Part shown: positions 7,888 through 27,174 of the stretch, one piece after another
How positions within the stretch are numbered: position 1 is the stretch's first letter
Layout: each line of letters starts with the position of its first letter
Source of the DNA: Actinomycetes bacterium
GTDB lineage: Bacteria > Planctomycetota > Phycisphaerae > JAACET01
NCBI GenBank assembly: GCA_030614915.1
Contig: JAUXAG010000019.1
Span: 1-40,789, forward strand
Direction of reading: 5' to 3'
Length of the DNA stretch: 40,789 nt
Program-made: the position numbers and the translations under genes
The notes under the pieces: generated by a model
What the model saw: only the letters and a program-made list of their open reading frames with translations
Database searches by the model: none
What the model was told of the DNA's origin: nothing

Positions 7888-7920
7888 CATGCGAGCCAGA
7901 TGATTGAGCGCAAGTTCTTT

Positions 7921-7996
7921 CGGGGCGTAGCTCAGCTTGGTTTAGAGTGCTTGACTGGGGGTCAAGAGGTCGCTGGTTCAAATCCAGTCGCCCCGA
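7921..7996 (+). tRNA. tRNA-Pro (anticodon GGG)
   Basis: The acceptor stem CGGGGCG (7921-7927) pairs with CGCCCCG (7989-7995), with A as discriminator. The anticodon stem CTTGA/TCAAG encloses the loop CTGGGGG, giving anticodon GGG, and the T-arm contains GGTTCAAATCC. CCA is not encoded. The 3' part from the anticodon loop onward is duplicated exactly at 27131-27174. Confidence 0.95.
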
Positions 7997-7998
7997 TT
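7955..7998 (+). repeat. 44-bp direct repeat, left copy (att-like, 3' part of tRNA-Pro)
   Basis: From the anticodon loop through two bases beyond the tRNA, this sequence is identical to 27131-27174. Direct repeats of a tRNA 3' end are the usual mark left by tyrosine-recombinase integration, so this is a candidate attachment site that retains the intact tRNA. Confidence 0.65.
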
Positions 7999-8192: not shown

Positions 8193-8214
8193 CCAGCCGT
8201 GTGTTCAAAGTATA
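8193..8214. repeat. 22-bp direct repeat, left copy
   Basis: Identical to 13474-13495, in the same orientation. Both copies lie shortly downstream (on the minus strand) of a PEP-CTERM tail coding sequence. Confidence 0.7.
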
Positions 8215-8333
8215 ACTTAATACGCGCCTTGTAGTAACTGGCACGGGCACAAAGAGCTACGACGTGCTTCAAAGGGAAGGGGCCAGTCATCCAAGCCAGC
8301 CCTTTTGACGAATAGCAGCATTTTTTATCAGGA

Positions 8334-8921
8334 TTAGTCCCACCGCCGACGCTTCAGCAGGGCCAAACCGCCCAGCAACAGCAGCCCCAGCGTGGCGGGT
8401 TCGGGTAGAGGGCCATGCACTGGTCCAAAACCCGTGCCTACAGGCAATTCCCACCCCGTGATGTGACCAACAGTCTCCGGCGGCACCGTTTCCACCATGA
8501 GCCAACCCACATCCTCAGAGCTCCACGGATGGTCGTAGCCAAATATAGCAGAATGCGTAGCATAGTCGGTATCTTCGGTCCACCAGCGGACTCTACCCTC
8601 CGTCAAGCAATAGCATGGCCCTGGAGAGACGCTTCCATGTGGAGTTTTTGTTCCATGGGCATGAGCCATCCCCTCGGACTCAACAGCGAAGTTCCAGTTT
8701 TCAGGTATCAGTATATTTGTGTAGTTATCACTATTCAAATCATTGGTTCCCAGCGTGAATAACATTAGCAGAAGTCCCCCAGTTACGTCATAGGCATACT
8801 GTCTGGGCCCACTGCCCCCGCTTTCGGTGCCCACGCAAAGGACCTGCGGAGCATCAGCCCTGGCCAACAATGCTGGACAAACCAGTTGCAACGCAACAGT
8901 AACTAGCAAGATCTTTTTCAT
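8334..8921 (-). CDS. PEP-CTERM sorted secreted protein (copy 1)
   Basis: The 195-residue protein has a Sec signal (MKKILLVTVALQLVCPALL, cleavage near ARA-DA) and a C-terminal PEP-CTERM signal: PLPEPATLGL, a hydrophobic helix, then the basic end KRRRWD. Such tails are recognised by an exosortase, which is not in this window. The mature domain is rich in Trp and His (GMAHAHGTKTPHGS, GRVRWWTED) and has paired Cys in 'GPCYCLT'; I do not recognise a family. The ATG at 8921 is chosen rather than the in-frame ATG two codons earlier because a GGAG ribosome binding site fits it and the paralogue at 8954-9559 has only this start. It is the last gene of a three-gene tandem family. Confidence 0.88.
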   Translation of the reverse strand: MKKILLVTVALQLVCPALLARADAPQVLCVGTESGGSGPRQYAYDVTGGLLLMLFTLGTNDLNSDNYTNILIPENWNFAVESEGMAHAHGTKTPHGSVSPGPCYCLTEGRVRWWTEDTDYATHSAIFGYDHPWSSEDVGWLMVETVPPETVGHITGWELPVGTGFGPVHGPLPEPATLGLLLLGGLALLKRRRWD

Positions 8922-8944
8922 TGCCATCTCCTATACTTTGCCAC

Positions 8945-8960
8945 CCTGCAATCTCAGGCC
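8945..8960. repeat. 16-bp junction repeat of the PEP-CTERM array, copy 1
   Basis: CCTGCAATCTCAGGCC occurs here, at 9583-9598 and at 10284-10299. It contains the stop codon of the upstream paralogue and lies 24 nt before the start of the next, so it marks the boundary of a tandem duplication unit. Confidence 0.75.
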
Positions 8961-9559
8961 AGCCTATGCCTACGCCTCAGCAGGGCCAAACCGCCCATCA
9001 GCATCAGGCCCAGCGTGGCGGGTTCGGGTAGAGGGCCATGCACTGGTCCGAAACCTGTGCCCACGGGCGCTTGCCAGTGCTCGTAGAATTCCGGCGGCCA
9101 AGGCATCCACGTGGTGGGCGTTGACAAACCCCAACCCACATCCTCAGAGAACCACGGATGATCGTAGCCGAAGGTAAAAGAACCCACGGCATTAGTTACA
9201 TCTTCCGTCCACCAGCGGACCCTACCGTAGGTCAAGCAATAGCATGGTCCTAGAGAGATGCTTCCATGTGGAGTTTTTGTTCCATGGGCATGAGCCATCC
9301 CCACTTGCTCAATAGCGAAGTTCCAGTTTTCAGGTATCAACAAATTTGTGTAGTTATCGCTATTCAAATCATTGGTTCCCACCATGAATTCTGTGATGGC
9401 GAATCCGTCGGCATCTACCTCATAGGCGTACTGTCTAGGCCCACTGCCACCGTTTTCGCTGCCTGTGCACAGGACCTGTGGGGGCGCAACATCAGCCCTG
9501 GCCAACAATGCTGGACAAACCAGTTGCAACGCAACAGTAACTAGCAAGATCTTTTTCAT
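8954..9559 (-). CDS. PEP-CTERM sorted secreted protein (copy 2)
   Basis: A 201-residue paralogue of the neighbouring gene, with the same signal peptide (MKKILLVTVALQLVCPALLA), the same internal blocks (NSDNYTN.LIPENWNFA, GMAHAHGTKTPHGS, GPCYCLT.GRVRWWTED, FGYDHPW.SEDVGW) and the PEP-CTERM signal PLPEPATLGL followed by a hydrophobic helix and RRRHRLA. The ribosome binding site GGAG precedes the ATG at 9559. It is separated from copy 1 by 32 nt of conserved junction sequence, which shows a recent tandem duplication. Predicted to be exported and attached or processed by an exosortase system; the role in the extracellular matrix is inference from the sorting tail. Confidence 0.88.
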   Translation of the reverse strand: MKKILLVTVALQLVCPALLARADVAPPQVLCTGSENGGSGPRQYAYEVDADGFAITEFMVGTNDLNSDNYTNLLIPENWNFAIEQVGMAHAHGTKTPHGSISLGPCYCLTYGRVRWWTEDVTNAVGSFTFGYDHPWFSEDVGWGLSTPTTWMPWPPEFYEHWQAPVGTGFGPVHGPLPEPATLGLMLMGGLALLRRRHRLA

Positions 9560-9582
9560 TGCTATCTCCTACACTTTGCCAC

Positions 9583-9598
9583 CCTGCAATCTCAGGCC
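9583..9598. repeat. 16-bp junction repeat of the PEP-CTERM array, copy 2
   Basis: Identical to 8945-8960 and 10284-10299; includes the stop codon of copy 3. Confidence 0.75.
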
Positions 9599-10140
9599 AA
9601 CCAATACCTGCGCCTCAGCAGAATCAGCCTACCTAGCAACACCAACCCCAGCGTGGCCGGCTCAGGAACCACCTCGAATTCAAGCGGCTGGCTATAGTAT
9701 GTATAGTTGCCCGGGGGCTCACCAATTTGCTCTTGCAGGGCACCTACCACACTATGTGTCCCAATGCTCAGATCATAGCCGTAAGTAGACGGCCCAACGG
9801 TATATTCCCAATCATGGTCCAAGTCCCAGTTGTAGGAACTCACCGCCCCAATGGTCACTTCCGTTAGCACTTGGAGGAATATCTTATCCGATGACCAATC
9901 ATAAACGTTGTCCATAATGTATGAAGCTTGCAAAGTATCACCGAATTGCAGCGTCACTTCGTAATCATTCGGATTATAGGCCGTCACCGAAACTGTGATA
10001 TCCTCTCCGAGCGAATACGACGGCTCGTCCGTGGCTACGCTAAGCTCGATTTCTGCCGCTTCAACCGAGTTGGCCGATACTACAAACACCATTACAACCA
10101 TCAAGATCAGGTTCCTCATCACGTCTGCGTTGCACTTCAT
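9592..10140 (-). CDS. PEP-CTERM protein with BsuPI-like domain (copy 3)
   Basis: From the ATG at 10140 (strong AGGAGG ribosome binding site) the gene encodes 182 residues. A Sec signal (hydrophobic core about 10-25, ending VEA-AE) precedes a domain that resembles the BsuPI intracellular proteinase inhibitor fold: an opening strand with 'EPSYSLGEDITVSVTAYNP', then VTLQFGD, DWSSDKIFLQ and a late 'LSIGTHSVVG'. The match is from memory of the family pattern. The C terminus is a PEP-CTERM tail (VVPEPATLGL, helix, RRRYWLA). The mature domain is unrelated to copies 1 and 2, but the tail and flanking junction are homologous. The frame stays open upstream to 10395, but that extension runs through a decayed copy of a PEP-CTERM tail and is not likely to be translated. 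Confidence 0.82.
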   Translation of the reverse strand: MKCNADVMRNLILMVVMVFVVSANSVEAAEIELSVATDEPSYSLGEDITVSVTAYNPNDYEVTLQFGDTLQASYIMDNVYDWSSDKIFLQVLTEVTIGAVSSYNWDLDHDWEYTVGPSTYGYDLSIGTHSVVGALQEQIGEPPGNYTYYSQPLEFEVVPEPATLGLVLLGRLILLRRRYWLA

Positions 10141-10274
10141 TTCCAGCCTCCTTTCTGCCTGTTCTTCGCAGGCACTTTTTGGACCTGACCTGCCGATCTC
10201 CGTGCCAACAATCCCGGCAATAACTGTCACAACATCTGTAGGATTCGGATTCTCTCTCTTCTCTCTCCTCCATA

Positions 10275-10396
10275 CTTTGGCATCCTGCAATCTCAGGCCG
10301 ATTTTCACCTGCCCCTCAGCAGGATCAGCTGCCCTCAGTAGAGGTCCCGCTCTCCCTGGCTCGGGGCCCCGGCTCAGGAACCACCTCGAATTCAAG
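10275..10396 (-). pseudogene. Decayed PEP-CTERM gene 3' end (fourth copy)
   Basis: This segment aligns with the 3' end of copy 3 (about 9574-9684): it shares the 16-bp junction repeat and an exact 26-bp block (10371-10396 versus 9659-9684) that encodes the residues LEFEVVPEP in copy 3. In between, small insertions and substitutions destroy the reading frame, and there is no body of a gene upstream. It is a remnant of a fourth member of the tandem family. Confidence 0.65.
10284..10299. repeat. 16-bp junction repeat of the PEP-CTERM array, copy 3
   Basis: Identical to 8945-8960 and 9583-9598; here it lies within the decayed fourth copy, 144 nt upstream of the copy 3 start. Confidence 0.75.
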
Positions 10397-10455
10397 GGGT
10401 TAATCCACTAATCCGTCTTTGTGTTACGCTTTTTTTGCGACAATTTCAAAAAAAC

Positions 10456-10484
10456 TGTAACAGACTGCTCAATTTGTGGATAAT
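10456..10484 (+). promoter_or_regulatory. Possible promoter of the sigma-sensor fusion gene
   Basis: GATAAT (10479-10484) is a good -10 hexamer; TGTAAC (10456-10461) lies 17 nt upstream but is a poor -35. The start codon is only 11 nt after the -10 element, so the transcript would be almost leaderless. Confidence 0.25.
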
Positions 10485-10495
10485 ACTAGGTAGAA

Positions 10496-12475
10496 GTGAG
10501 TCGTATTGATGATAGCAGTTGTCTCAAGCTGATCAAACAGGCCCAGCTTGGCGATCGGGCAAGTGTCGAGCGCTTGGCGGGTCTGCTCAGGCCTAAGGTC
10601 TGCGCGTACATCTATCGGCTCACGCTGGACCATCACTTGGCTGAGGACCTTTCCCAGGAAACCCTGCTGGAGCTGGTTAAGTCTTTTTCTTTCAGGAAGT
10701 TAACGTTTGAATCTGCCGGAATGTTTAGTTCATGGCTGTTTCGTACGGCATTGGGTAAGGTTCAGCATCATTTCAGGGACCAAGGCAAACGCATAATGGC
10801 AATGTCCGCAATCGACAACGATCGCTTATCCCGCGTCATGTCCAGCGATCATACGGATGGGCTAACCGCCTTGATGCGCAAGGAGTTGTCCACTGCTGTA
10901 TTCCAAGCTATCAGCGAGCTGAAGCTCAGTTACCGAAACGTTCTGGCCCTGCGGTGCTTTGAGCAGATGTCATATTCTGAGATTGCGGCTGTGATGGATT
11001 GCAGCGAACTCCACGTCAGGGTGTTGGTCTTCCGGGCAAAACGTTCGCTTACGCGGCAATTATCACGCCAAGGCTTCAGTAAAGCATTATTCCTGACGGC
11101 ATTGGGATTGTTTGGCCGAATCACCGCTCCCGCCGAGGCCTCGGCAGGCATCACCGTAACGGCCGCTACTGTCAAGGTAGGCCTGGCTGGCACGCTCGCC
11201 GGGACCGTTGGCACGACGATCGGCATAGCTGCTGTTACTGCTGTAGTTGCCACAGCTCTTGTCGTAGGCGGAATTACAGCTCTATCCAACGATAAGCCTC
11301 CCAAACGGTCTGAAGTAAGAAGTATTCGTTATGTTCACCACAGCCCCCATCCGGACCGTGCCAAAGCCGTAGAAAACATAAGTGGAGCTATCCGCGAGTC
11401 GCGGTTTTATTTTCCAGATGGAATTGACGGCCCTGTTTCCAGACGTAATCAGGCCTGGACCCCAAACCGGAAATTTCAATTCCAGGATTGGTTGCAGAGT
11501 GGCCAGGGTAGTTATGAGTACCAGCCACCAAGACATGTTATAATCCATAATTGTAATGGCGTTTATCCAGAGCAAACCTTGATTCTGCCTTCGGACCCGT
11601 CTGATTTCCGTGCCTTTGTTCACGAGGTAGAAGGTAGGAGAACGGCAGATATTACTACCTATGATGAAGAAACAGGCCTGCCTCTGAGAACACTAGATGT
11701 CATGTTTGACAATATAGAAGACTCTTACGTGAAATTCGAATACAACACATTGGACCAAGCGGATTTCCAGCACGCCTGGCCTTCAGATGTTATTGTAATA
11801 GATCAGCGAGATGCCATGCACAAGCGAGGCTGGACTTATTTCCGCATTGCAGGCCAAATCAATAATGAACAAATCTCGGGCTACGGCCAGATTCCTTTTA
11901 TCTATGACGCCCTGCGGGAGCATCCCCCTTGGTTGAGATTGAATATAGGCGACAGACTACAAATTGCTGATATCCCTTCGGGGGCGCGTTTAGCTAATTC
12001 CGATGGAACGGTAATTGCGGCTTTGCCCTCAGGCAGTTTCTTCAGAGGATTGCCTCAGCCTTGGATGGGAATACACACCCTCGACATTGTACGCAGAAAC
12101 GCTGCCAAACACAGACTGTGGTTTGAAACGAGACTATTGGACAAGATTGCGCAGCATCCGTTCTATAAAAGGGCAGAAGTTACGGTGTATAATGTTCGGC
12201 AAGGTATAGATCTAAGATTAACATATCTCATTGACATGCAGAGAGACGTCGTTGAAAGCATACGCATAGCGTCATCTTCTGGTGGTGGGATCGAAGCGCG
12301 GGGTGTGATCAGATTTGAGTATCTTGAGGATGTTGAACAGGTGACTGACGAATTTATTGAGCCGATCGAACTAATATTTTCAGAAGTGTCACCCAAGAAG
12401 AACATGGTCTCGTTTTGGCTAATGGAGTTGGCCCAGGGCGCACTTGGCCAGCCAGGGAACAACTCAGCGAATTAA
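10496..12475 (+). CDS. ECF sigma factor fused to a membrane helix and extracytoplasmic domain
   Basis: A 659-residue fusion. Residues about 15-95 form sigma region 2 (ALGDRA-type start, DLSQETLLELVKSF at 51-64, WLFRTALGKV near 80-89) and about 135-192 region 4 (LKLSYRNVLALRCFEQMSYSEIAA... with helix-turn-helix at 157-182). A Gly/Ala/Val-rich membrane helix follows (about 236-263), then about 395 residues with no recognised domain, probably outside the cytoplasm. Ordinary ECF factors are near 190 residues and use a separate anti-sigma; here the regulator is apparently in cis, a layout known from Planctomycetota. It starts at GTG 10496 and is divergent from the PEP-CTERM genes, so it may control them (inference). 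Confidence 0.85.
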   Translation: MSRIDDSSCLKLIKQAQLGDRASVERLAGLLRPKVCAYIYRLTLDHHLAEDLSQETLLELVKSFSFRKLTFESAGMFSSWLFRTALGKVQHHFRDQGKRIMAMSAIDNDRLSRVMSSDHTDGLTALMRKELSTAVFQAISELKLSYRNVLALRCFEQMSYSEIAAVMDCSELHVRVLVFRAKRSLTRQLSRQGFSKALFLTALGLFGRITAPAEASAGITVTAATVKVGLAGTLAGTVGTTIGIAAVTAVVATALVVGGITALSNDKPPKRSEVRSIRYVHHSPHPDRAKAVENISGAIRESRFYFPDGIDGPVSRRNQAWTPNRKFQFQDWLQSGQGSYEYQPPRHVIIHNCNGVYPEQTLILPSDPSDFRAFVHEVEGRRTADITTYDEETGLPLRTLDVMFDNIEDSYVKFEYNTLDQADFQHAWPSDVIVIDQRDAMHKRGWTYFRIAGQINNEQISGYGQIPFIYDALREHPPWLRLNIGDRLQIADIPSGARLANSDGTVIAALPSGSFFRGLPQPWMGIHTLDIVRRNAAKHRLWFETRLLDKIAQHPFYKRAEVTVYNVRQGIDLRLTYLIDMQRDVVESIRIASSSGGGIEARGVIRFEYLEDVEQVTDEFIEPIELIFSEVSPKKNMVSFWLMELAQGALGQPGNNSAN

Positions 12476-12557: not shown

Positions 12558-13376
12558 ATGGTCAGAAATGATACACGGTTTGCACCGCTAGAATTGCCTG
12601 CAGGGGGGAAATGTGAACGCACTGCGTTCACACTTGTGGAACTATTGGTGGTCGTGGCCATAATTGTCTTGCTGGTGAGCATCATGCTGTCGAGCCTAAA
12701 CCGGGCCCGCGAGCAAGCCCAGCAGACGGTCTGTCTCCATAATCTGAAACAATGGTCCGTGGCCTTGGCCCTTTACGACAACCAGAACGGAGGCCTTCCA
12801 ACTTTCTTTGAATCTGATAATACGGCTGATGTTACTTACACGATCGGTCCATATCTCGGCTATAACTTTTATGACTTCTGCGGTCCGGGTGTTCTGGGCC
12901 CGGGCGCCCTAGATATCGCACCCTTGGTTGGACCACCCATATGGCATTGCCCCACGGCCCCGGACAACCCTTATGGGTACGGCATGAATTACCCCAATGT
13001 CTTTGGTTATGCTGACAGAGACGTTCTGCCAGAGGGTCATAAGCCCTGGCGGATACATGAGATCCCCAGGCCTGCGGAGACTATCGCGATGGGAGACTCT
13101 CAGGTGTATAGGTTTCTATACGCACCCTACGGGCCTACTACCACGTGGGAACCAGATCTGGATTATGACGGTGATAGTATCAATGATACGAATTCGGGGA
13201 TATTAGCCTACTTGGCGGGGATTCACGGTTACGGAATACCCTACAATAATATCGCGCCTCGGCATGGGGATCGAATTGCTAATTGTGCATTCCTTGACGG
13301 CCACGCCGAAGGTATGCACATCAACGAACTGATGGACCCAGACCGGCGGCTCTGGGGCGAGGACCTTTGGGAGTAA
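12558..13376 (+). CDS. Prepilin-type protein with N-terminal methylation motif and H-X-DG C-terminal motif
   Basis: From the ATG at 12558 the product has 272 residues. Residues 22-45 are a type IV prepilin/pseudopilin signal, TAFTLVELLVVVAI, with Phe as +1 and Glu at +5; the residue before the cleavage site is Ala rather than the usual Gly. The C terminus has 'RHGDRIANCAFLDGHAEG', the H-X-DG motif of DUF1559-like Planctomycetota proteins, here with ten residues between His and Asp-Gly where nine are usual. These proteins occur in large numbers in this phylum and are thought to be exported through pseudopilin machinery. The frame extends 38 codons upstream, but the extension has no signal or conserved feature. 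A perfect palindrome lies over the signal coding region. Confidence 0.83.
   Translation: MVRNDTRFAPLELPAGGKCERTAFTLVELLVVVAIIVLLVSIMLSSLNRAREQAQQTVCLHNLKQWSVALALYDNQNGGLPTFFESDNTADVTYTIGPYLGYNFYDFCGPGVLGPGALDIAPLVGPPIWHCPTAPDNPYGYGMNYPNVFGYADRDVLPEGHKPWRIHEIPRPAETIAMGDSQVYRFLYAPYGPTTTWEPDLDYDGDSINDTNSGILAYLAGIHGYGIPYNNIAPRHGDRIANCAFLDGHAEGMHINELMDPDRRLWGEDLWE
12612..12632. repeat. 21-bp near-perfect palindrome inside the prepilin gene
   Basis: TGTGAACGCA (12612-12621) and TGCGTTCACA (12623-12632) are perfectly complementary with a single central base. It overlaps the codons for the prepilin cleavage site. Confidence 0.7.
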
Positions 13377-13473: not shown

Positions 13474-13495
13474 CCAGCCGTGTGTTCAAAGTATA
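13474..13495. repeat. 22-bp direct repeat, right copy
   Basis: Identical to 8193-8214. It lies about 40 nt from a decayed PEP-CTERM tail (13537-13581), the same relation the left copy has to an intact PEP-CTERM gene. Confidence 0.7.
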
Positions 13496-13536
13496 GATTA
13501 ATAATAACTCATCACAACTGACGCTCTAACCGAAAA

Positions 13537-15360: not shown

Positions 15361-18300
15361 TCATTTAGCCCGCTCTGGAGTGGACAGATCTGCTATAAAG
15401 GATCGCATCGACCGCAGTGACCGCATCAGCCTTAACGACTCTGTCAAAGTAACAACTTGTTCGTTCTCAGAGGGTGCAAGATTTACACTTATCCAGACGT
15501 AATCGGGCTTGCTGATATAAAAGCAGACTTCATCCGCTGGCGCGTCTGTCCAGCTGAACTGTCCCTGGGGGTTCGTATTAGTGCTCCAGCTGATGGTCCG
15601 GTAATTCCGCCAGCTGATGGCCATTACCCTGACGTCGGCGATCGGCCTGTCCTGGGTATCGACAACACGCCCACGGATGGTCTGTCCCTTCTCCAGTACG
15701 AAGCGAAGCGGCTCCATGTCTTGGTGGACCTGCACATTCAGCAACTCGGGGGCAAAGCCAGCCTTTTGGGCGGTTAGAATCGCTTCGCCCGGCCTGGCAT
15801 TGGCAAGGCGAAAGTGTCCTCGCTCGTCCGTGCTGGTTTGTGAGAACGCAGCACGCCGGCGGTCGCGCCCTTGCCTAACGCTGGCCCCGCCGACGGGTTT
15901 GCCTTCTGTATCGAGGACTTGTCCCACAACCTCCAGCCCCCGCCTTAGTATCATCACTGCGGTTCGGTCTCGAAGTTTCTCCATTGGGGGGACCTCGCTG
16001 GAACCATAGTAAGAGTCACTGATATAGTCAGGATGAGAAAGCCCTATGTGTGACAGATCCAGGTTGTCCGGCAAGGGAGGTGTGTGCCATCGACCTTTGG
16101 AGTCGGTCAAAACATTGACACTTCTAACTTGACGGATGCCCGGCGGCCACGGTCCGGCAATATGCACGGCCACGGCTGCACCTTCTACCGGCTGGCCCTG
16201 CTGATTCTTCACCAGACCTCCATAACGGACTGCCGCTCTTAGCGTCACCTGCTCCGGCAGTGGTCCAGCGAAACGCCGGCCGCCAGTCTCGACAGTGGCC
16301 AAGCCCTGCTTGGATATTCGCAACATGTGTCTTCCGGAGACGTTCGCTAAAGGAGTAAGCCTAGCTCGGCCGTCTTTCCCCGTTATAGCTGAGCGCGACC
16401 AGTTGATCTGCTCAGGATCTACGACCACAGTGGCACCTTCCACCGGCTTGCCATCGCTATCAACTGCCCGGATTGATATGGGGTTATCCTCCGGAATCGG
16501 CTCTCTACTTTCAGCATCCTCCGGGGCCTCAAACCGCAAGCCTATCAGTTCGAACTCTCCGGGTGTCTGCTTGCCACAGAAGACACCCAAGGCCATGCCA
16601 GTGATGTGACCCTCAGGGCCTAGCTCCCGCAGATCCTTTTTCAGGCGGTGTATCTTTCCATCTGCTGTGAGCGAACTACAGGAAAATGGCGCTACTCCGC
16701 CACTATTTGGCCCCCTGGTATCATCAAGCCAAAGAACATAATCGCCAACTGAGGGCGCGTTACGTGCACGATAGGTCAGGACAACAATGGGATAATGCTC
16801 CGGATCGATTGGCACTGTGAAATAATAGATCCACACGTGCCAGTGCTCCGGCTCAATCACCGAAAAACGAGGGTGGGCACCACTTACATCCATCGCCACC
16901 GCTTCAGTGTTCAACCAGCGACCCCAACTACCGGCCCAGCCAACAGAATTCCACAGCAACTTAGGGTCAATCACCACGGCTCGTTCCGGCGATACCCCAA
17001 AGATCTCTTGCTTGGCATCGTCGGCTACCTTCGTGGCGGGCTGGGGCGATTCGGTTGACGCTGATTTGGCGCGCGGGGCGGAAGATATTTTCAGGTTGTC
17101 GAAGCGGATATCGTACTCGTATCCGGCCTTGGGTGTCTGGAAGGCCACAATCGCCTTATTAACGCGGCCAAGAGGTTCTTCCAAATTCAGAGTGTCCACC
17201 AGAACGTCGTTGACGTAATAATCTATTTGCTTTCGGTTCTCGCGCACGTACATTCGCATGGTAATGAATTCGGTATCTTCCTTGCCCACATCGGGGTATG
17301 TACGCCTTCCCTTCTCCAACCACCATTTAACCTTCAACCACATCGTGTGGACCTGATACCAACCTTTGGGTCCGCCGGAGCCCATAAACCACAGCATTGG
17401 ACGGTGGAGCTGCCATTGGTAAAGGATCATCGGGCGGCCTGTCTGGCCTTCGGGATACAGGCCCATGAATACCAACCCGTAGTCCTCGCGTTTGGGCAGT
17501 TTGAAATCGATCGAGGCGTCAAGGCTGCCGCCAAGGTCGTTCACCGGAACAAAGGTGCCCTCGCCGCCCCACTCGGTATCCGTGGTTTTGCCCCAAACTC
17601 GCAGTTCGCCGATCTGCACGCCGACGTTCATGCCCTCTTCACTGTGTACTATGTCCAAACCTGCATCGGTGTCGAATGTATAATGGACCTCTGCTGCAAC
17701 GTTCTTTCCCGGCTGCGTGGCGGGGCCTTCGCGAACCATAATGACGGCCTCTTTGGATTCACCCTTGGCCATCGGCAACAGCAGTGCAGCCGTTATTAAG
17801 ACAATGGCCAAGCCGAGCAGGCCGAGCTTGGCGGTTTTGGGCAATGGTCGGCTGATGATGTGCTTTATCCGCTGGGTAAGGGCCTTCTTGGATTCGACTA
17901 CGCCGATCAGACGCAAGCTCAGGGCTGGCCGAGCAAGGGATAGCCGGGCAACCGCGAGCAGTGTGTCGGGGTACTGCTCGTGCTTCTCGCCCATGGCTAC
18001 CAACACCATCTCGTCAACGGCCTGTTCGCGAACCCGCCGGATAACCGCATTGGCCAGCCAGAGCAAGGGATTGTAGAAGTAAACAATCTGCAAGAGGGTC
18101 TGGGCCAGATTGACCCATAGATCACGACGCTTGATGTGGGCCAGCTCGTGCAGTAGCACCGCAGATAGATGCTGTGAATCCAATTGCTCCGGCATGTGCT
18201 GCGGAATGAGAATCATCGGTCGAAACAATCCGCAAACGGCTGGGCTGGTGGCGTTGGGTGAAATCTTCAGACTGATCGACTTCTTGATGGCCAATCGATT

Positions 18301-18909
18301 GCGGCAGTCTTCCAATAGGGCTAAGAGGGGGGCATCTGCATCGCTGGACTGGGCAATAAGGCCCCTGACAAAAAGCAGCCGCTGAATCAGCAGAAGAACC
18401 ATCGCGGCTACTACAGCCAGCCAGATAAGCAAGGCTATAGCCGTCCAGGTTATGGGAATAGCTGGTGGTAAAACCTCAGGAACTGGTTCAACCGGTCTCG
18501 GAGCTGGTAGAACTTCCTGATCTGGCATTTCCGTGATTGGCTCTACATGAATTGGTGCCACGGCTACATCGGGAGGTTCGGCCGGTGTAAAGACTGGTAA
18601 GATTCCAGCCGGCCCCCCCTCTGCAACCGGCTGGTCCCAACTAATCGCGGTTTGGCTGGGCAGGTTGAGAAAATTCCCGCCGACCCAATAGCCGATGCCC
18701 GTGGGCGCAGATAACGTGGTCGGCAGAACGAGTTTGACCAGGATCAATAGCAACAGCCAATAGCGAAATACCGCCCGGGGCTTTCTGCGGAGCATCAGGT
18801 TCAGACCCAGCAGAATAAGGATAAGCAGGCTGGACTGAATCAGCATCGGCAGGGCAAATATGACGAATGAACGCCCAATCGAGTTGAGTTGGGTAATTAC
18901 GGCATCCAT
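15361..18909 (-). CDS. BlaR1/MecR1-type M56 metallopeptidase receptor with large extracytoplasmic carboxypeptidase-regulatory-like region
   Basis: A 1182-residue sensor. Membrane helices lie at about 15-40, 48-66, 152-180 and 361-382. Between the third and fourth is the cytoplasmic M56 zinc protease domain with HELAH (254-258) and the downstream acidic segment REQAVDE (294-300). The C-terminal 800 residues face outward: first a lectin/LamG-like beta region (about 395-600), then a second beta region, then about four Ig-like carboxypeptidase-regulatory repeats (DSDGKPVEGATV, NQQGQPVEGAAV, DTEGKPVGGASV, DTQDRPIADVRV). There is no penicillin-binding sensor domain, so the ligand is not a beta-lactam recognised in the usual way; a polysaccharide or cell-surface ligand fits better. 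It starts 37 nt after blaI with a GGGGAT ribosome binding site. Confidence 0.88.
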   Translation of the reverse strand: MDAVITQLNSIGRSFVIFALPMLIQSSLLILILLGLNLMLRRKPRAVFRYWLLLLILVKLVLPTTLSAPTGIGYWVGGNFLNLPSQTAISWDQPVAEGGPAGILPVFTPAEPPDVAVAPIHVEPITEMPDQEVLPAPRPVEPVPEVLPPAIPITWTAIALLIWLAVVAAMVLLLIQRLLFVRGLIAQSSDADAPLLALLEDCRNRLAIKKSISLKISPNATSPAVCGLFRPMILIPQHMPEQLDSQHLSAVLLHELAHIKRRDLWVNLAQTLLQIVYFYNPLLWLANAVIRRVREQAVDEMVLVAMGEKHEQYPDTLLAVARLSLARPALSLRLIGVVESKKALTQRIKHIISRPLPKTAKLGLLGLAIVLITAALLLPMAKGESKEAVIMVREGPATQPGKNVAAEVHYTFDTDAGLDIVHSEEGMNVGVQIGELRVWGKTTDTEWGGEGTFVPVNDLGGSLDASIDFKLPKREDYGLVFMGLYPEGQTGRPMILYQWQLHRPMLWFMGSGGPKGWYQVHTMWLKVKWWLEKGRRTYPDVGKEDTEFITMRMYVRENRKQIDYYVNDVLVDTLNLEEPLGRVNKAIVAFQTPKAGYEYDIRFDNLKISSAPRAKSASTESPQPATKVADDAKQEIFGVSPERAVVIDPKLLWNSVGWAGSWGRWLNTEAVAMDVSGAHPRFSVIEPEHWHVWIYYFTVPIDPEHYPIVVLTYRARNAPSVGDYVLWLDDTRGPNSGGVAPFSCSSLTADGKIHRLKKDLRELGPEGHITGMALGVFCGKQTPGEFELIGLRFEAPEDAESREPIPEDNPISIRAVDSDGKPVEGATVVVDPEQINWSRSAITGKDGRARLTPLANVSGRHMLRISKQGLATVETGGRRFAGPLPEQVTLRAAVRYGGLVKNQQGQPVEGAAVAVHIAGPWPPGIRQVRSVNVLTDSKGRWHTPPLPDNLDLSHIGLSHPDYISDSYYGSSEVPPMEKLRDRTAVMILRRGLEVVGQVLDTEGKPVGGASVRQGRDRRRAAFSQTSTDERGHFRLANARPGEAILTAQKAGFAPELLNVQVHQDMEPLRFVLEKGQTIRGRVVDTQDRPIADVRVMAISWRNYRTISWSTNTNPQGQFSWTDAPADEVCFYISKPDYVWISVNLAPSENEQVVTLTESLRLMRSLRSMRSFIADLSTPERAK

Positions 18910-18946: not shown

Positions 18947-19348
18947 CTATCGTTTCTTGGCCTTGGAGGCCTGCTTGCGTTTCTGCCTGATTAGACTCTC
19001 CAACTGGCTCAATTGTTCCTGGCTCAGATCATTACTGTCGAGCAGGAACTGCATCATCGGGGTAAGGGCCCCGTTGAAAGCCTGCTTGATGGCGAGGGTC
19101 AGTTCGCCCTTGCGGGCCTGGGAAAGGGTTATTGCCGGGCGATACAGGTACAGGTTGCGGATTCTCTCGGCTTTGAGTAGGCCTTTTGTGACCATGCGGT
19201 CCATCAGGGTCTTGACGGTGCTGTAGGTCCAGCCAATTTGCTTCTGAAGCTTTTCCTGAACCGTTGGGGCTGGGACAGGCTCCAGCTTCCAGACTACTTG
19301 CATTATGGCCCATTCGCCTTTGGTTAGCTTACGATGTGACTTTTTCAT
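18947..19348 (-). CDS. blaI: BlaI/MecI/CopY-family transcriptional repressor
   Basis: The 133-residue protein has the winged-helix pattern of the family: KLTKGEWAIMQVVWK at the N terminus, TVQEKLQKQIGWTYSTVKTL as recognition region (about 30-48) and a C-terminal dimerisation helix ending in a lysine-rich tail. BlaI repressors bind an inverted repeat at their own promoter and are cut when the partner M56 receptor is activated. The partner gene follows directly, and a 24-bp dyad overlaps the predicted promoter at 19377-19405. The ribosome binding site AAGGAG precedes the ATG. Confidence 0.92.
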   Translation of the reverse strand: MKKSHRKLTKGEWAIMQVVWKLEPVPAPTVQEKLQKQIGWTYSTVKTLMDRMVTKGLLKAERIRNLYLYRPAITLSQARKGELTLAIKQAFNGALTPMMQFLLDSNDLSQEQLSQLESLIRQKRKQASKAKKR

Positions 19349-20948: not shown

Positions 20949-22400
20949 CTACGGAATTACCCCATCTATGGCATGGTGGATCATGCCAATCAGCGGGACG
21001 AACATCGCATAGACTACCAGCCCTACCAATAGGCCCATTACAATTGTCACGCACGGCCAAAAGATGTACCTCGCCAGATTGGTTATGTAGCTGTAATGGG
21101 AACGGTAGAACGATTCCAGGCTCTGAAGGATAGCCGGCGTGTTCCCCTGGTTCACCTTCTGGTCAAAGGCCCAGACCAGAGTTGAACCCACTCGGTTTTT
21201 CCGGGCCGCCTCAGCTACGTCCTGGCCGCCCTGGACCTGATCCAGCCACCGCCTCAGCCGCCGCCGGTAACACGCATTGGCGTCAAGCTCCGCCGCCCCG
21301 GCAATCGCCTGGTCCACAGTGCTCCCGGCATTTATCGATAAACGCAAAAACGATACCGTCTGCAGAAGTGAAAAATTCCGCTCGAACCATCGCAGCACTG
21401 GAAAGTGCCACTTGAAAAAATCACCGATTCGAGAAACAGCATACGCTCGTTCCGGCCTGCGCGGGCGAAACTTCAAATACAGTGCCGACGGCACTACCAC
21501 CAGGATCAGAATCGCCAGCACAGCAAAGAGCAAACTAAAGTACTCATTAGAAAGCAAAAACACCCCTCGCGTAATTGCCGGCAGCGGTTGGCCTAGATCC
21601 TTGTAGATAGACTCGAATTCTGGGAGGACGAAAACCATCATCCCACCCATAAAGGAGAAGACCACCAGAATCAAAACCACCGGATAGGCTAGGTTAACCG
21701 GCTGGAACTTTCGCGCCTCGCGGCTTTTTTCGGACAGTTGGGCCTCGATACCCGCCACAGCCTGGGGTACTTGCTGAATTTTCTCGGCCTCGGTGATCAT
21801 AGCCAGGGCATATCCCGGGCATTTGGGATAACCACGCCTCAGCGATTTACTCAGCGGATACCCCTCCGTCAGCCAGTGCGATATCCGCTGCATGATTCGA
21901 CGACGTTTTCCATTTTGGCCTCCGGCCGCCGACTCCAGCGCTGCCGCCAGCGGAAGGTTTTGGCGCATGCTGGCCCCAATAGTGGAAAATACATGCGTTG
22001 TTGTGGTGTCTCGGGAGATGAGGTTATAACGTACCACCATCATGGCTGCCATTGCCAATAAGAAAAAACCGTAAGGCCCGAATACAGCAAGCCCAATGAA
22101 CAGATACACCCCTATTACCAGAATGTAAAACAAAGTCTTGGCAAAGCCCCATGCCCGCGAAGGTTTTTCAAGCCTGAGCCTGGTCTCAAGTCTGGGCTCG
22201 GCCATTATCGCTGACACCAGAGTAGCCAGGGCAATCAGTGAAGCCATAATCACGGCCACAATGTTGTCTATTCCTCCGACCAGGACTGCACCGACAGCCA
22301 AGGGACAGCTCAGCAGGGCAAGTCCCGGACGAAGGCGGGCCAGCACAGCGAACACCGCTGCAAGGCAACCTCCCAAAAGAACAATCATATACTCTGACAT
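20949..22400 (-). CDS. Type II secretion/type IV pilus platform protein, GspF family, with extra N-terminal membrane segments
   Basis: A 483-residue inner membrane protein. The N-terminal third has about four extra hydrophobic segments (about 5-22, 28-60, 86-110, 112-125) not present in standard GspF. The rest has the two GspF half-repeats: a cytoplasmic helical part (TIGASMRQNLPLAAALESAA, about 142-161), the helix near 230-255 followed by VFVLPEFESIYKDLG, and a second repeat ending in the helices near 455-478. It is one of two F-like genes in the operon, which is unusual because most systems have one. Confidence 0.85.
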   Translation of the reverse strand: MSEYMIVLLGGCLAAVFAVLARLRPGLALLSCPLAVGAVLVGGIDNIVAVIMASLIALATLVSAIMAEPRLETRLRLEKPSRAWGFAKTLFYILVIGVYLFIGLAVFGPYGFFLLAMAAMMVVRYNLISRDTTTTHVFSTIGASMRQNLPLAAALESAAGGQNGKRRRIMQRISHWLTEGYPLSKSLRRGYPKCPGYALAMITEAEKIQQVPQAVAGIEAQLSEKSREARKFQPVNLAYPVVLILVVFSFMGGMMVFVLPEFESIYKDLGQPLPAITRGVFLLSNEYFSLLFAVLAILILVVVPSALYLKFRPRRPERAYAVSRIGDFFKWHFPVLRWFERNFSLLQTVSFLRLSINAGSTVDQAIAGAAELDANACYRRRLRRWLDQVQGGQDVAEAARKNRVGSTLVWAFDQKVNQGNTPAILQSLESFYRSHYSYITNLARYIFWPCVTIVMGLLVGLVVYAMFVPLIGMIHHAIDGVIP

Positions 22401-22422
22401 ATTACTGTTTCCCTTGACCTAT

Positions 22423-23625
22423 CTAACCAATAGCGCCCGAGGCCCCTTCAATCATCTTAGGAAGCGGCAGGAACACGGCCGTAACCGCTAGGCCGATAAT
22501 CCCCCCGACTATAATCAGCATTACTGGCAGCAGCAGGGCCTGAAGCCTCGATTGCTGCGTCCGGGTCTGTTGAGAGTACATGTCCGAGAGGCTGAACAGA
22601 TTGTCCTCCAGCTCGTTGCGCTGATACCCCAATTGCATGGAGTAGAAAAACAGCGGGGGTATTACGCTGCAAAGCTGACCAGCCTCCACGATGTTCTGTC
22701 CCTGTTCGATCTGGGCAGCTACTAGCTCGCACTGGGTTTTGACCTGTTCACTTCCGGTGGCCCCGGCGCTTAGACGAAAACAGCTGGGCATATCACAGCC
22801 GGCCCCAACCAGCAGGCCCATGGCGTCGGCCAGTTTGCACATCAGACCCCGGTGATACACCCTGCCCAGCACTGGAACCCTCATATAGAGATATTCTTTG
22901 AATCGCCTGCCTGCCGGAAAGCTCGACAGGGCTCCTGTCAGAACAATCAAGCCAGCGACAATTGCGCCCACACCTATCCAGAAGGGAACCACATAATCCG
23001 TAGCGGCCATGATAGCTTTCGTCAGGACCGGCAACTGCGAACCCATATCCTCAAATATCACCATGATCTGTGGTATTACAAACGTAAAGACCCCTGTCAG
23101 GATCACCGCAGCTAAGCCCAAGACCACCAGTGGATAAGTGATAGCCTCAAATACGATCCGCCGAGTCTGATTGCTCATCTCCAGATGGTGGTTGAGGCTG
23201 GTGAGCATCTCGCTGAGCCGTCCGGTCTTTACCCCCGCCTTTATAATCTGGCTGTACAATGGTGGAAAAAACTTCTGCCGCTTTTCCAGGGCCTCTTCGA
23301 TGCTCGTCCCCGCTTGGAGGTCATCCGCAAACTCCACAATAAGCTTGCGCATCGACCTTGACTCGATATCCGCTGCCACTTCGCGCAGTCCCCTTTCCAG
23401 CGGAATTCCTGCTTTAGTGATCGAGGCCAACTGCTGATTGAAAAGCAGGAACTCGTTTCTTCCAATCCGACTGCGCGGCCTGGGAACCTTGGCCTTCTCA
23501 AGGATGTTCACCCTAAGCTGCATCTCGGTGAGCATCTCGTTAGCCTGCTCCCCCGAAGCCGCCTCCACCGTGCCCTTCATTAGCCTACCTGCCGGGGTCA
23601 ACGCCTGGTATTCGAATGTCGCCAT
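22423..23625 (-). CDS. GspF/PilC family platform protein
   Basis: A 400-residue protein of ordinary GspF length. It opens with the family's typical MATFEYQALTPAGRLMKGTV and has both helical half-domains, each with the F-protein pattern (FNQQLASITKAGIPLERGL, and LADAMGLLVGAGCDMPSCF), separated by membrane helices near 170-195 and 215-235 and closed by one near 370-390. In assembled systems this protein couples the cytoplasmic ATPase to pseudopilin extraction from the membrane. It lies 22 nt after the E gene and has an AAGGA ribosome binding site. Confidence 0.93.
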   Translation of the reverse strand: MATFEYQALTPAGRLMKGTVEAASGEQANEMLTEMQLRVNILEKAKVPRPRSRIGRNEFLLFNQQLASITKAGIPLERGLREVAADIESRSMRKLIVEFADDLQAGTSIEEALEKRQKFFPPLYSQIIKAGVKTGRLSEMLTSLNHHLEMSNQTRRIVFEAITYPLVVLGLAAVILTGVFTFVIPQIMVIFEDMGSQLPVLTKAIMAATDYVVPFWIGVGAIVAGLIVLTGALSSFPAGRRFKEYLYMRVPVLGRVYHRGLMCKLADAMGLLVGAGCDMPSCFRLSAGATGSEQVKTQCELVAAQIEQGQNIVEAGQLCSVIPPLFFYSMQLGYQRNELEDNLFSLSDMYSQQTRTQQSRLQALLLPVMLIIVGGIIGLAVTAVFLPLPKMIEGASGAIG

Positions 23626-23647
23626 GTCTTATCCTTTACTCAGAATG

Positions 23648-24832
23648 TTACAAAGCCCGCCCGCAGGCCTTGCCCATTTCTTCCTGCGTGGTTACACCCT
23701 TACCGAGCAATCGCTGACCATCCTGGGCCAAGTCAATATGACCTTTGCTTGAGAGGATAGTCTCGAGCTCTTCCAGGTCCGCCTTTGCCAGCACCGCCTT
23801 GCGCAGTTGGCTGTCCAACTGCATCATCTCCGAGATGAGTACCCTGCCTCTAAAGCCCGTCTGGAGACATTTCTCACAGCCGCCGGCTCGGTAATAGCCT
23901 GTCTGCTTATCAAGCTCCTTGCAATGCCCGCAGAGCTTCCGCAGCAGTCTTTGATTTAGCACCGCACAGATACTGGAAGTTACCTGGTACGGTTCAATGC
24001 CCATCTCCAGCAGCCTCAGTAGCGCTCCCGCCGGGGAGCCGCTGTGCATCGTACTCATCAGCAGATGCCCGGTGAGTCCCGCTTCAACAGCGATCCGGGC
24101 CGTCTCGGCATCACGAATCTCCCCGATCATCAGCACTTCGGGGTCCTGGCGCAGCAGCGAGCGAAGGGCCGTTGGAAAGGTCATTTGCCCATGCGGAGGA
24201 ATCTGCACCTGGCTGACCGATTCGATCCGCCTTTCAACCGGGTCCTCTAAGGCTACGATGCTTTTGCCAGGAAAGCGGCGCACAATATGGCGCAGAATAG
24301 CAGCCAGCGTCGTGCTCTTACCACTGCCGGCCGGCCCGGTCAGCAGCAGCACCCCCTGACTGGCACAGGCGATCTGCTTCAATGCCGCTAGGATTGTCTC
24401 GCCGAATCCAAGCTGATCCAGTTCAGTCAAGGCTGGCTCTTCGTAGAACAGCCGAACCACCGCCCGCTGCCCGTGTATGGTCGGAAACACTGCCACCCGC
24501 CGCTCGACCACCCTTGTGCCCGAGCTGTCAAGCAGTTCCATCCGTCCTTCTTGCGGAACATCATTGCGATAAGTCAGCAGCCCAGCCATCACCTTGAGCC
24601 TGGCCACAATATTCTCAGCCAAGCCGTTCGGCAGCTCCTCCATGGTTTTGAGCACTCCGTCCAGACGGAACCTGATTTGCATTCCTTTGCCGGTAGGTTC
24701 GAAGTGCACATCGCTGGCCCGCGATTCCGTGGCCCGCCCCAGCAGCTCGCTCACCAATGAAACCGCATCGTAGACCTTTGGCCCTGTGTCCTGTCCGCCT
24801 TGCACTGAACTGTCTTTTTTCACTTTACTCAT
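23648..24832 (-). CDS. GspE/PilB-type secretion ATPase
   Basis: A hexameric AAA-type traffic ATPase of 394 residues from the ATG at 24832 (a GTG at 24886 would add 18). Visible motifs: N2-domain ASDVHFEP (39-46), Walker A GPAGSGKST (166-174), Asp box ALEDPVE (194-200), Walker B VLMIGEIRDAET (233-244), His box GLTGHLLMSTMHS (252-264), and a tetra-Cys zinc motif C301-x2-C304 ... C319-x2-C322. The long N1 domain of PilB/GspE is missing, so this is the short form. It is the first gene of a six-gene operon E-F-F-I-J-X. No secretin (GspD) or GspG major pseudopilin gene is present nearby. Confidence 0.93.
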   Translation of the reverse strand: MSKVKKDSSVQGGQDTGPKVYDAVSLVSELLGRATESRASDVHFEPTGKGMQIRFRLDGVLKTMEELPNGLAENIVARLKVMAGLLTYRNDVPQEGRMELLDSSGTRVVERRVAVFPTIHGQRAVVRLFYEEPALTELDQLGFGETILAALKQIACASQGVLLLTGPAGSGKSTTLAAILRHIVRRFPGKSIVALEDPVERRIESVSQVQIPPHGQMTFPTALRSLLRQDPEVLMIGEIRDAETARIAVEAGLTGHLLMSTMHSGSPAGALLRLLEMGIEPYQVTSSICAVLNQRLLRKLCGHCKELDKQTGYYRAGGCEKCLQTGFRGRVLISEMMQLDSQLRKAVLAKADLEELETILSSKGHIDLAQDGQRLLGKGVTTQEEMGKACGRAL

Positions 24833-24960
24833 ACCCCGGACCCTCTGCCCCAATCTGCGACCCCCCTCCAATAGGACGCTCGACACGCCGAAACATTATC
24901 CCTAAAAAGCCTCTATCCAGACATTTTTCCCAGAATTTCCTTCTCCTGAGGCAAAATTTG

Positions 24961-25029: not shown

Positions 25030-25599
25030 ATGACGACCAAAGCAGTCAGTTGGGGAATCTGCTGGGACACCGTCGCTGCTGAGTCGGTAGTTGCCAATCA
25101 GCGCTGGGTTCTCTCTGCCATGCAGAAGCACGGACCGGCTCTGGTTACCGTGCTCTGGCGAATTTTGGCAAATGAGCAGGATGTCTGCGATGCATATCAA
25201 GACACCTTTCTGAAGTTGGCCCATTACCAGGATGGTCAAAGACCCCACAAGGTTAAGCCTTTTGTCTTTCGGACCGCTACCAACGTGGCCATCTCCATGC
25301 TCCGGCGGAAGAGGTTACAAATTAAGACCCGTCGGGTCGTCGCCGACCGTGCCCGGCAGAGGCCCCGCTCCGACGGTGTCGCCGATCTGGATGCCAGAGA
25401 ACTACAGGAATTGCTAAGAACCAACATCGCCCGCCTGCCCCACCGCCTCCAAAGCGTGGTGGTCTTGAAGGACTTGGCCGAACTGCCTTACAACCAGGTG
25501 GCCACGGCCTTAGGCATCTCCGTCGGGACGGCTCGCGTCTACAGGTGCAGGGCCATAAGATTGCTCAATACCTGGATGGCTCAAGAGGAAGAAGAATAA
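25030..25599 (+). CDS. ECF-type RNA polymerase sigma factor
   Basis: The 189-residue protein is normal ECF size. Region 2 spans about residues 28-98 (NEQDVCDAYQDTFLKLAHY, then PFVFRTATNVAISMLRRKR) and region 4 about 134-182 (LPHRLQSVVVLKDLAELPYN with helix-turn-helix through VRRCRAIRLL-type end). No extra domain is fused. An anti-sigma gene follows 2 nt after the stop codon and the gene is divergent from the pseudopilin operon, so these two units may form one regulatory circuit (inference). Start is the ATG at 25030; the ribosome binding site is weak. Confidence 0.92.
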   Translation: MTTKAVSWGICWDTVAAESVVANQRWVLSAMQKHGPALVTVLWRILANEQDVCDAYQDTFLKLAHYQDGQRPHKVKPFVFRTATNVAISMLRRKRLQIKTRRVVADRARQRPRSDGVADLDARELQELLRTNIARLPHRLQSVVVLKDLAELPYNQVATALGISVGTARVYRCRAIRLLNTWMAQEEEE

Positions 25600-27130: not shown

Positions 27131-27174
27131 CTGGGGGTCAAGAGGTCGCTGGTTCAAATCCAGTCGCCCCGATT
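27131..27174 (+). repeat. 44-bp direct repeat, right copy (tRNA-Pro 3' fragment)
   Basis: Identical to 7955-7998 over 44 bases. The 5' half of the tRNA (acceptor strand, D-arm, 5' side of the anticodon stem) is absent, so it cannot be a functional tRNA. It is 19,176 bp from the left copy, in the same orientation. Confidence 0.75.

Follow-up and report, generated by a model that had tools for sequence, protein, structure and literature searches.

Some extracytoplasmic function (ECF) sigma factors carry a fused extension and are activated when it is proteolysed; by the time of a 2022 review (PMC8999054), IutY of Pseudomonas putida (ECF243) was the only one of these to have been worked out experimentally. 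It is a sigma/anti-sigma hybrid that is activated by Prc and RseP proteolysis (PMC5411451; PMC8999054), and proteolytic activation has been proposed for ECF48, ECF52 and ECF53 as well (PMC8999054). The regulation of PEP-CTERM genes is a separate question. In Proteobacteria these genes are under two-component control by PrsK/PrsR/sigma-54, and the paper that first described the system did not settle how they are regulated in other bacteria (PMC1569441). Both subjects meet in a contig of 40,789 nucleotides (JAUXAG010000019.1, assembly GCA_030614915.1; the window, hereafter, is this whole stretch) from a planctomycete of the Phycisphaerae deposited as an Actinomycetes bacterium. Here the gene for a sigma fusion protein lies back to back with a cluster of PEP-CTERM genes and is followed by a pseudopilin-type gene (Table 1). 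The locus is probably best explained by a one-piece sensing sigma factor that transcribes its own operon and whose reach has, at the level of the genus, been extended to the PEP-CTERM genes.

The N-terminal part of the fusion carries both regions that define an ECF sigma factor above their curated cut-offs, sigma2 as Sigma70_r2 (PF04542, E 2e-9, 37.5 bits against 24) and sigma4 as Sigma70 r4_2 (PF08281, E 3.5e-10, 39.8 bits against 25.7), and this half is also matched by TIGR02937 (71.8 bits against 42.9). By hydropathy, a membrane segment separates it from the C-terminal domain, which is presumed to face outside. The C-terminal domain has invariant residues in an alignment of 82 sequences and, as modelled by AlphaFold2 from 82 homologues, it folds confidently (predicted local distance difference test, pLDDT, 89.5; predicted template modelling score, pTM, 0.90), superseding an earlier model from 8 sequences (pLDDT 68). 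It has no useful sequence match in Pfam or PDB; no recognisable anti-sigma domain (FecR, ZAS) was matched by Pfam in the fusion or in the 82 C-terminal domains, and PADLOC returned nothing useful for the proteins of the locus. The few high-probability Foldseek matches include LolA proteins (probability 0.99–1.00) and MucB (0.96). These are weak, with 6–12% identity, and a LolA/RseB-like reading is a lead rather than an assignment because the template modelling scores (TM-scores) to the target are just 0.31–0.41. MucB is the periplasmic sensor of a sigma-E-type pathway and, unlike the fusion, is a separate protein that is not joined to a sigma factor.

Like IutY, the fusion would have a sigma domain, a membrane segment and a periplasmic regulatory domain in a single polypeptide, the topology here being presumed. 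IutY, unlike the fusion, has 374 aa, its anti-sigma domain is of the CSS type and it responds to the aerobactin receptor IutA, whereas the present protein has a domain of ~390 aa with no recognised anti-sigma match, and a pseudopilin and secreted cargo are encoded alongside it. ECF48, ECF52 (SCO4117) and ECF53 are likewise ECF sigma factors, extended at the C-terminus by a part with transmembrane helices, to which SCO4117 adds an extracytoplasmic domain (PMC8999054). These are from Actinobacteria and have a described zinc-finger (likely ZAS) domain (PMC8999054), whereas the fusion has none by Pfam and belongs to a planctomycete family.

A class-wide search gave 79 loci of this family, all in planctomycete genomes, and with the addition of loci from whole genomes 85 were analysed. 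The sigma part is present in 81 of these, and of the four with no sigma match two end at a contig boundary. Behind the sigma domain there is a hydrophobic segment in 72 of the 81 homologues. None of the 85 loci has a ZAS-type (HxxxCxxC) anti-sigma gene as an immediate neighbour, which agrees with the proposal, made in an earlier sequence-only reading of the window, that there is no separate anti-sigma factor.

In the window the pseudopilin gene is directly behind the sigma gene and, by position, in the same operon. It was overlooked in the sequence-only reading, an omission that matters because a pseudopilin recurs at other family loci. Indeed, where at least 6.5 kb is available on both sides, a pseudopilin is present downstream on the same strand in 25 of 38 loci and upstream in 2. 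In most cases a large secreted protein comes before it, the type varying (WD40-like repeats, beta-helix, FG-GAP, dockerin), so that the recurring order in the relatives is sigma, secreted protein, pseudopilin. The general job of the family is tied to the pseudopilin and the secreted protein. The gene in the window has the N-methylation motif of prepilins above the cut-off (TIGR02532, 18.3 against 16.3), with PF07963 falling short (17.6 against 21.2). The equivalog model for GspG, TIGR01710, matches with an E of 1.4e-7 and a score of 31.6, which does not reach the cut-off of 88.85, and the gene is for this reason described as pseudopilin-like and not as GspG.

On the other side of the sigma gene, the sequence agrees with the earlier description of three intact PEP-CTERM genes and one decayed copy diverging from the fusion. 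All three intact genes are above the TIGR02595 cut-off of 16 bits used in the whole-genome search, with the Pfam model PF07589 staying below its own cut-off. Genes 1 and 2 are tandem duplicates (75% identity; 124 of 192 compared codons identical; non-synonymous divergence, dN, 0.17; synonymous divergence, dS, 0.35), and gene 3 is a distinct protein with the tail in common. The start of gene 3 is the ATG at 10140 with AAAGGAGG upstream, and not that of a mechanical open reading frame of 267 aa. The decayed fourth copy is genuine, 10369–10399 being 97% identical to the gene 3 tail and 10251–10329 being 75% identical to the junction of gene 3 and gene 2. PEP-CTERM signals above the cut-off are found at 45 places in the genome, which has a single exosortase (PF09721, E 6.8e-54, C12:30978-31766). 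The cluster thus combines sorting signals above the cut-off with an exosortase in the same genome, as is expected of exosortase substrates.

The two sides of the locus are connected by a promoter motif, which was derived by k-mer enrichment upstream of 75 sigma genes and then described by a position weight matrix (PWM). The motif consists of an A-tract, GTWAC, a spacer of N15-17 and a GGCACTTA-like block, with a two-block form, AAAAAAANCGTWAC-N15-17-GGCACTTA, and clade variants. The PWM scores above 11 bits in 67 of the 75 sigma upstream regions, against 1–3 in Markov-shuffled sets, and the position of the motif is steady, mostly 50–90 nt before the start of homology; since the PWM was trained on those very regions, the argument rests on the shuffles and on the steady position. 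The presence of this conserved -35/-10 element upstream of the sigma genes is consistent with autoregulation. A sigma-54 reading of the TGGCAC part was dropped, as this lies 15–16 nt downstream of GTWAC, the spacing of an ECF -10 box. Additional copies of the motif are present ahead of cargo genes, among them those for the pseudopilin in L026 and for secreted proteins in L072 and L066.

In the window there are two copies, back to back between the sigma and PEP-CTERM genes, and these are the two best PWM matches of the 40.8 kb. Shuffled windows have 0–1 matches at ≥ 13 bits. Across the whole 2.56-Mb genome, a strict pattern taken from the pair matches perfectly at these two sites only; no site differs by a single mismatch, and eight differ by two, the reversed control giving ten. 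The first gene downstream of the predicted minus-strand promoter is gene 3.

Both copies are also kept in a congener (G001). The sigma contig of this genome starts 391 bases before the sigma open reading frame, and the initial 141 nt match the end of the PEP-CTERM contig exactly, head to head; this overlap means that the divergent pair is conserved in the genus. The PEP-CTERM contig has a close relative of gene 1, and a relative of gene 2 with 67% identity occurs in G001. Alignment to the window is poor from the PEP-CTERM start to the promoters, the conserved part running from near 10391 and including both elements. The -10 boxes are GCATTA and GCATTA in G001 and GGATAA and GGATTA here, and on this sequence comparison the boxes of both promoters have changed together. 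Locus L060 (DAOVKO010000107.1) agrees with congener contig G001:C170 in match position and identity.

As a general partner of the fusion, the PEP-CTERM genes are ruled out by the neighbourhood counts. The hidden Markov model scan of the neighbourhoods was run without bias correction (with it, known copies were missed), and of the 60 loci where the sequence extends 3 kb or more upstream, only 2 have a PEP-CTERM gene within 3 kb, both from this genome. The sequence-only reading named homologues lacking such neighbours as the evidence that would count against it; 58 of the 60 loci are of this kind, and as a general rule its proposal is unsupported. A third divergent case is that of G001, seen after the two contigs were joined, and L084 has one more PEP-CTERM neighbour, on the same strand. 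At the level of whole genomes, 29 of the 30 with the fusion have PEP-CTERM genes. This co-occurrence is uninformative as a test, because an exosortase is found in 98 of 101 class relatives regardless, the fusion being found in 5 of them.

The other PEP-CTERM-associated locus of this genome is that of its second fusion (contig C28, L022:6128-14482), which is 38–39% identical to that of the window. Four PEP-CTERM genes diverge from it, the last a fragment, and a ChaN-like protein and a pseudopilin are encoded downstream. The PEP-CTERM proteins begin differently from those of the window. Duplication of a single locus may have given rise to both loci.

These features would be accounted for if the 659-aa protein is an envelope-responsive ECF sigma factor in one piece, in which a cytoplasmic sigma2–sigma4 part is joined through a single membrane segment to a folded, presumably extracytoplasmic domain that stands in for a separate anti-sigma factor. 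The active sigma would transcribe its own operon, here the sigma and pseudopilin genes and in relatives usually those for the sigma, secreted protein and pseudopilin, from the A-tract/GTWAC/GGNNNNTA promoter. A second, genus-specific copy of this promoter, placed back to back with the first, would bring the divergent PEP-CTERM run under the same sigma. Activation would most likely come about as in IutY (PMC5411451) and as proposed for ECF48, ECF52 and ECF53 (PMC8999054), with the sigma half released by proteolysis once the outside domain has changed.

The suggestion that the sigma half controls the PEP-CTERM genes, also made in the sequence-only reading, is plausible for this locus, given the back-to-back promoters that are the sole exact matches in the genome and are kept in the congener, and is unsupported as a general rule, given the neighbourhood counts. 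It is the most economical reading here because the promoter pair is duplicated and co-varies, and as a genus-specific arrangement such control is credible. It would be limited to this cluster and leave out the genome's remaining PEP-CTERM genes, because the strict element occurs nowhere else. As with PrsK/PrsR, there would be a dedicated regulator and an upstream DNA motif for PEP-CTERM genes. Unlike the PrsK/PrsR/sigma-54 system, the regulator here would be of the ECF type, with a -35/-10 promoter of its own, and is predicted for one PEP-CTERM cluster only. No precedent for control of PEP-CTERM genes by an ECF sigma was found in the literature searched, and the searches made for literature linking PEP-CTERM or pseudopilins with ECF sigma factors returned nothing relevant.

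Several points weigh against this explanation. A shared promoter was sought at L022 and none was found. The support from the congener is a single comparison. The strict pattern was written from both sites, so that just its uniqueness is informative. The neighbour counts are uncorrected for shared ancestry, some genomes contribute several loci, and many contigs are short. Genes for M50 site-2 proteases are present in the genome, and being universal these are a permissive condition only.

The alternative that fares best, itself a tentative one, refines the one-piece sensing sigma rather than excluding it: the signal for the C-terminal domain would be the state of assembly of the pseudopilin or secreted protein encoded with it, and not a ligand from outside, so that the locus would work as a secretion-feedback circuit. 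The fact that the order of sigma, secreted protein and pseudopilin recurs while the cargo types change favours this, as does the LolA/MucB-like match of the sensor fold; against it, the association is one of adjacency alone and the fold match is weak. Somewhat less likely is that the sigma drives only its own operon, the PEP-CTERM genes having come to lie beside it by coincidence through gene traffic and the minus-strand element belonging to an inverted repeat for autoregulation instead of being a working promoter. PEP-CTERM genes are common in this genome and almost never found at the family's other loci, no shared site was found at L022, and gene 3 would have a long leader (~250 nt) that runs through the decayed gene, all of which would fit a coincidence. 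However, the minus-strand element is complete, with an A-tract, a -35 box, a 16-nt spacer and a -10 box, and it faces the PEP-CTERM genes. It is unique in the genome save for its plus-strand twin and is kept in the congener, where the change in its -10 box parallels that of the sigma-side promoter. The full model of the sequence-only reading, a surface system dedicated to PEP-CTERM proteins, whose exported forms the C-terminal domain would bind and monitor, has adjacency at three loci of the genus (window, L022 and G001) and a promoter link at two in its favour, and is improbable given that the domain is conserved at many loci with no PEP-CTERM neighbours, that exosortase is so much more widespread than the fusion among the relatives, and that G064 has a relative of PEP-CTERM gene 2 and no detected fusion.

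The sigma/PEP-CTERM block adjoins a tRNA-Pro gene (7920–7997). Homology with G001 extends from a yebC-like gene through ispG to the 3' end of the tRNA-Pro and stops there, and in G001 the sigma module is on contigs other than that of the tRNA region. The 3' half of the tRNA (7955–7998) has a 44-nt exact copy in direct orientation 19 kb away, at 27131–27174. This suggests that the module is held in a tRNA-bounded genomic island. The block from the PEP-CTERM genes to the pseudopilin is itself bracketed by a 30-nt direct repeat (8193–8222 and 13474–13503) that has just these two copies in the genome. No integrase was identified among ten genes scanned in the putative island. At 20949–24886, in the same putative island as the pseudopilin, are a GspE-type ATPase and two GspF-type proteins (type II secretion/type IV pilus-like). 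The window also has a BlaR1-type M56 peptidase with carboxypeptidase-regulatory-like domains (15361–18909) beside a BlaI-type repressor (18947–19348), and a second, ordinary ECF sigma gene (25030–25599).

Table 1. Features of the sigma fusion locus, in positions of the window
Feature	Position	Strand	Details
PEP-CTERM gene 1	8334-8927	-	197 aa; TIGR02595 25.2 bits
PEP-CTERM gene 2	8954-9559	-	201 aa; TIGR02595 26.1 bits
PEP-CTERM gene 3	9592-10140	-	182 aa; BsuPI-like domain PF12690 E 3.3e-9; TIGR02595 16.8 bits
Decayed PEP-CTERM tail	10251-10399	-	Broken frames
Predicted ECF promoter toward PEP-CTERM genes	10401-10436	-	AAAAAAAGCGTAAC-N16-GGATTA (-10 at 10401-10406); PWM 13.7 bits
Predicted ECF promoter of sigma operon	10448-10487	+	AAAAAAACTGTAAC-N16-GGATAATACT; PWM 20.6 bits
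Sigma fusion gene	10496-12475	+	659 aa
ECF sigma domain, residues 1-190	10496-11065	+	PF04542, PF08281, TIGR02937
Predicted transmembrane segment, residues ~233-265	11192-11290	+	Kyte-Doolittle maximum 2.35
C-terminal domain (~390 residues, 272-659), presumed extracytoplasmic	11309-12475	+	Alignment, AlphaFold2, Foldseek
Pseudopilin-type gene	12558-13376	+	272 aa; start could be TTG 12444; GspG-like TIGR01710, TIGR02532

With promoters, a sigma factor and an operon partner that can all be named at one locus, both the regulation of PEP-CTERM genes and the activation of sigma factors with fused extensions become directly testable. It is possible, if speculative, that the planctomycetes have a class of single-protein envelope-sensing sigma factors, each with a pseudopilin and an interchangeable secreted protein, that act as self-contained secretion-feedback circuits, and that in this genus promoter duplication extended such a circuit to exosortase substrates. 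The family-wide promoter motif allows regulon prediction across many uncultured planctomycetes.

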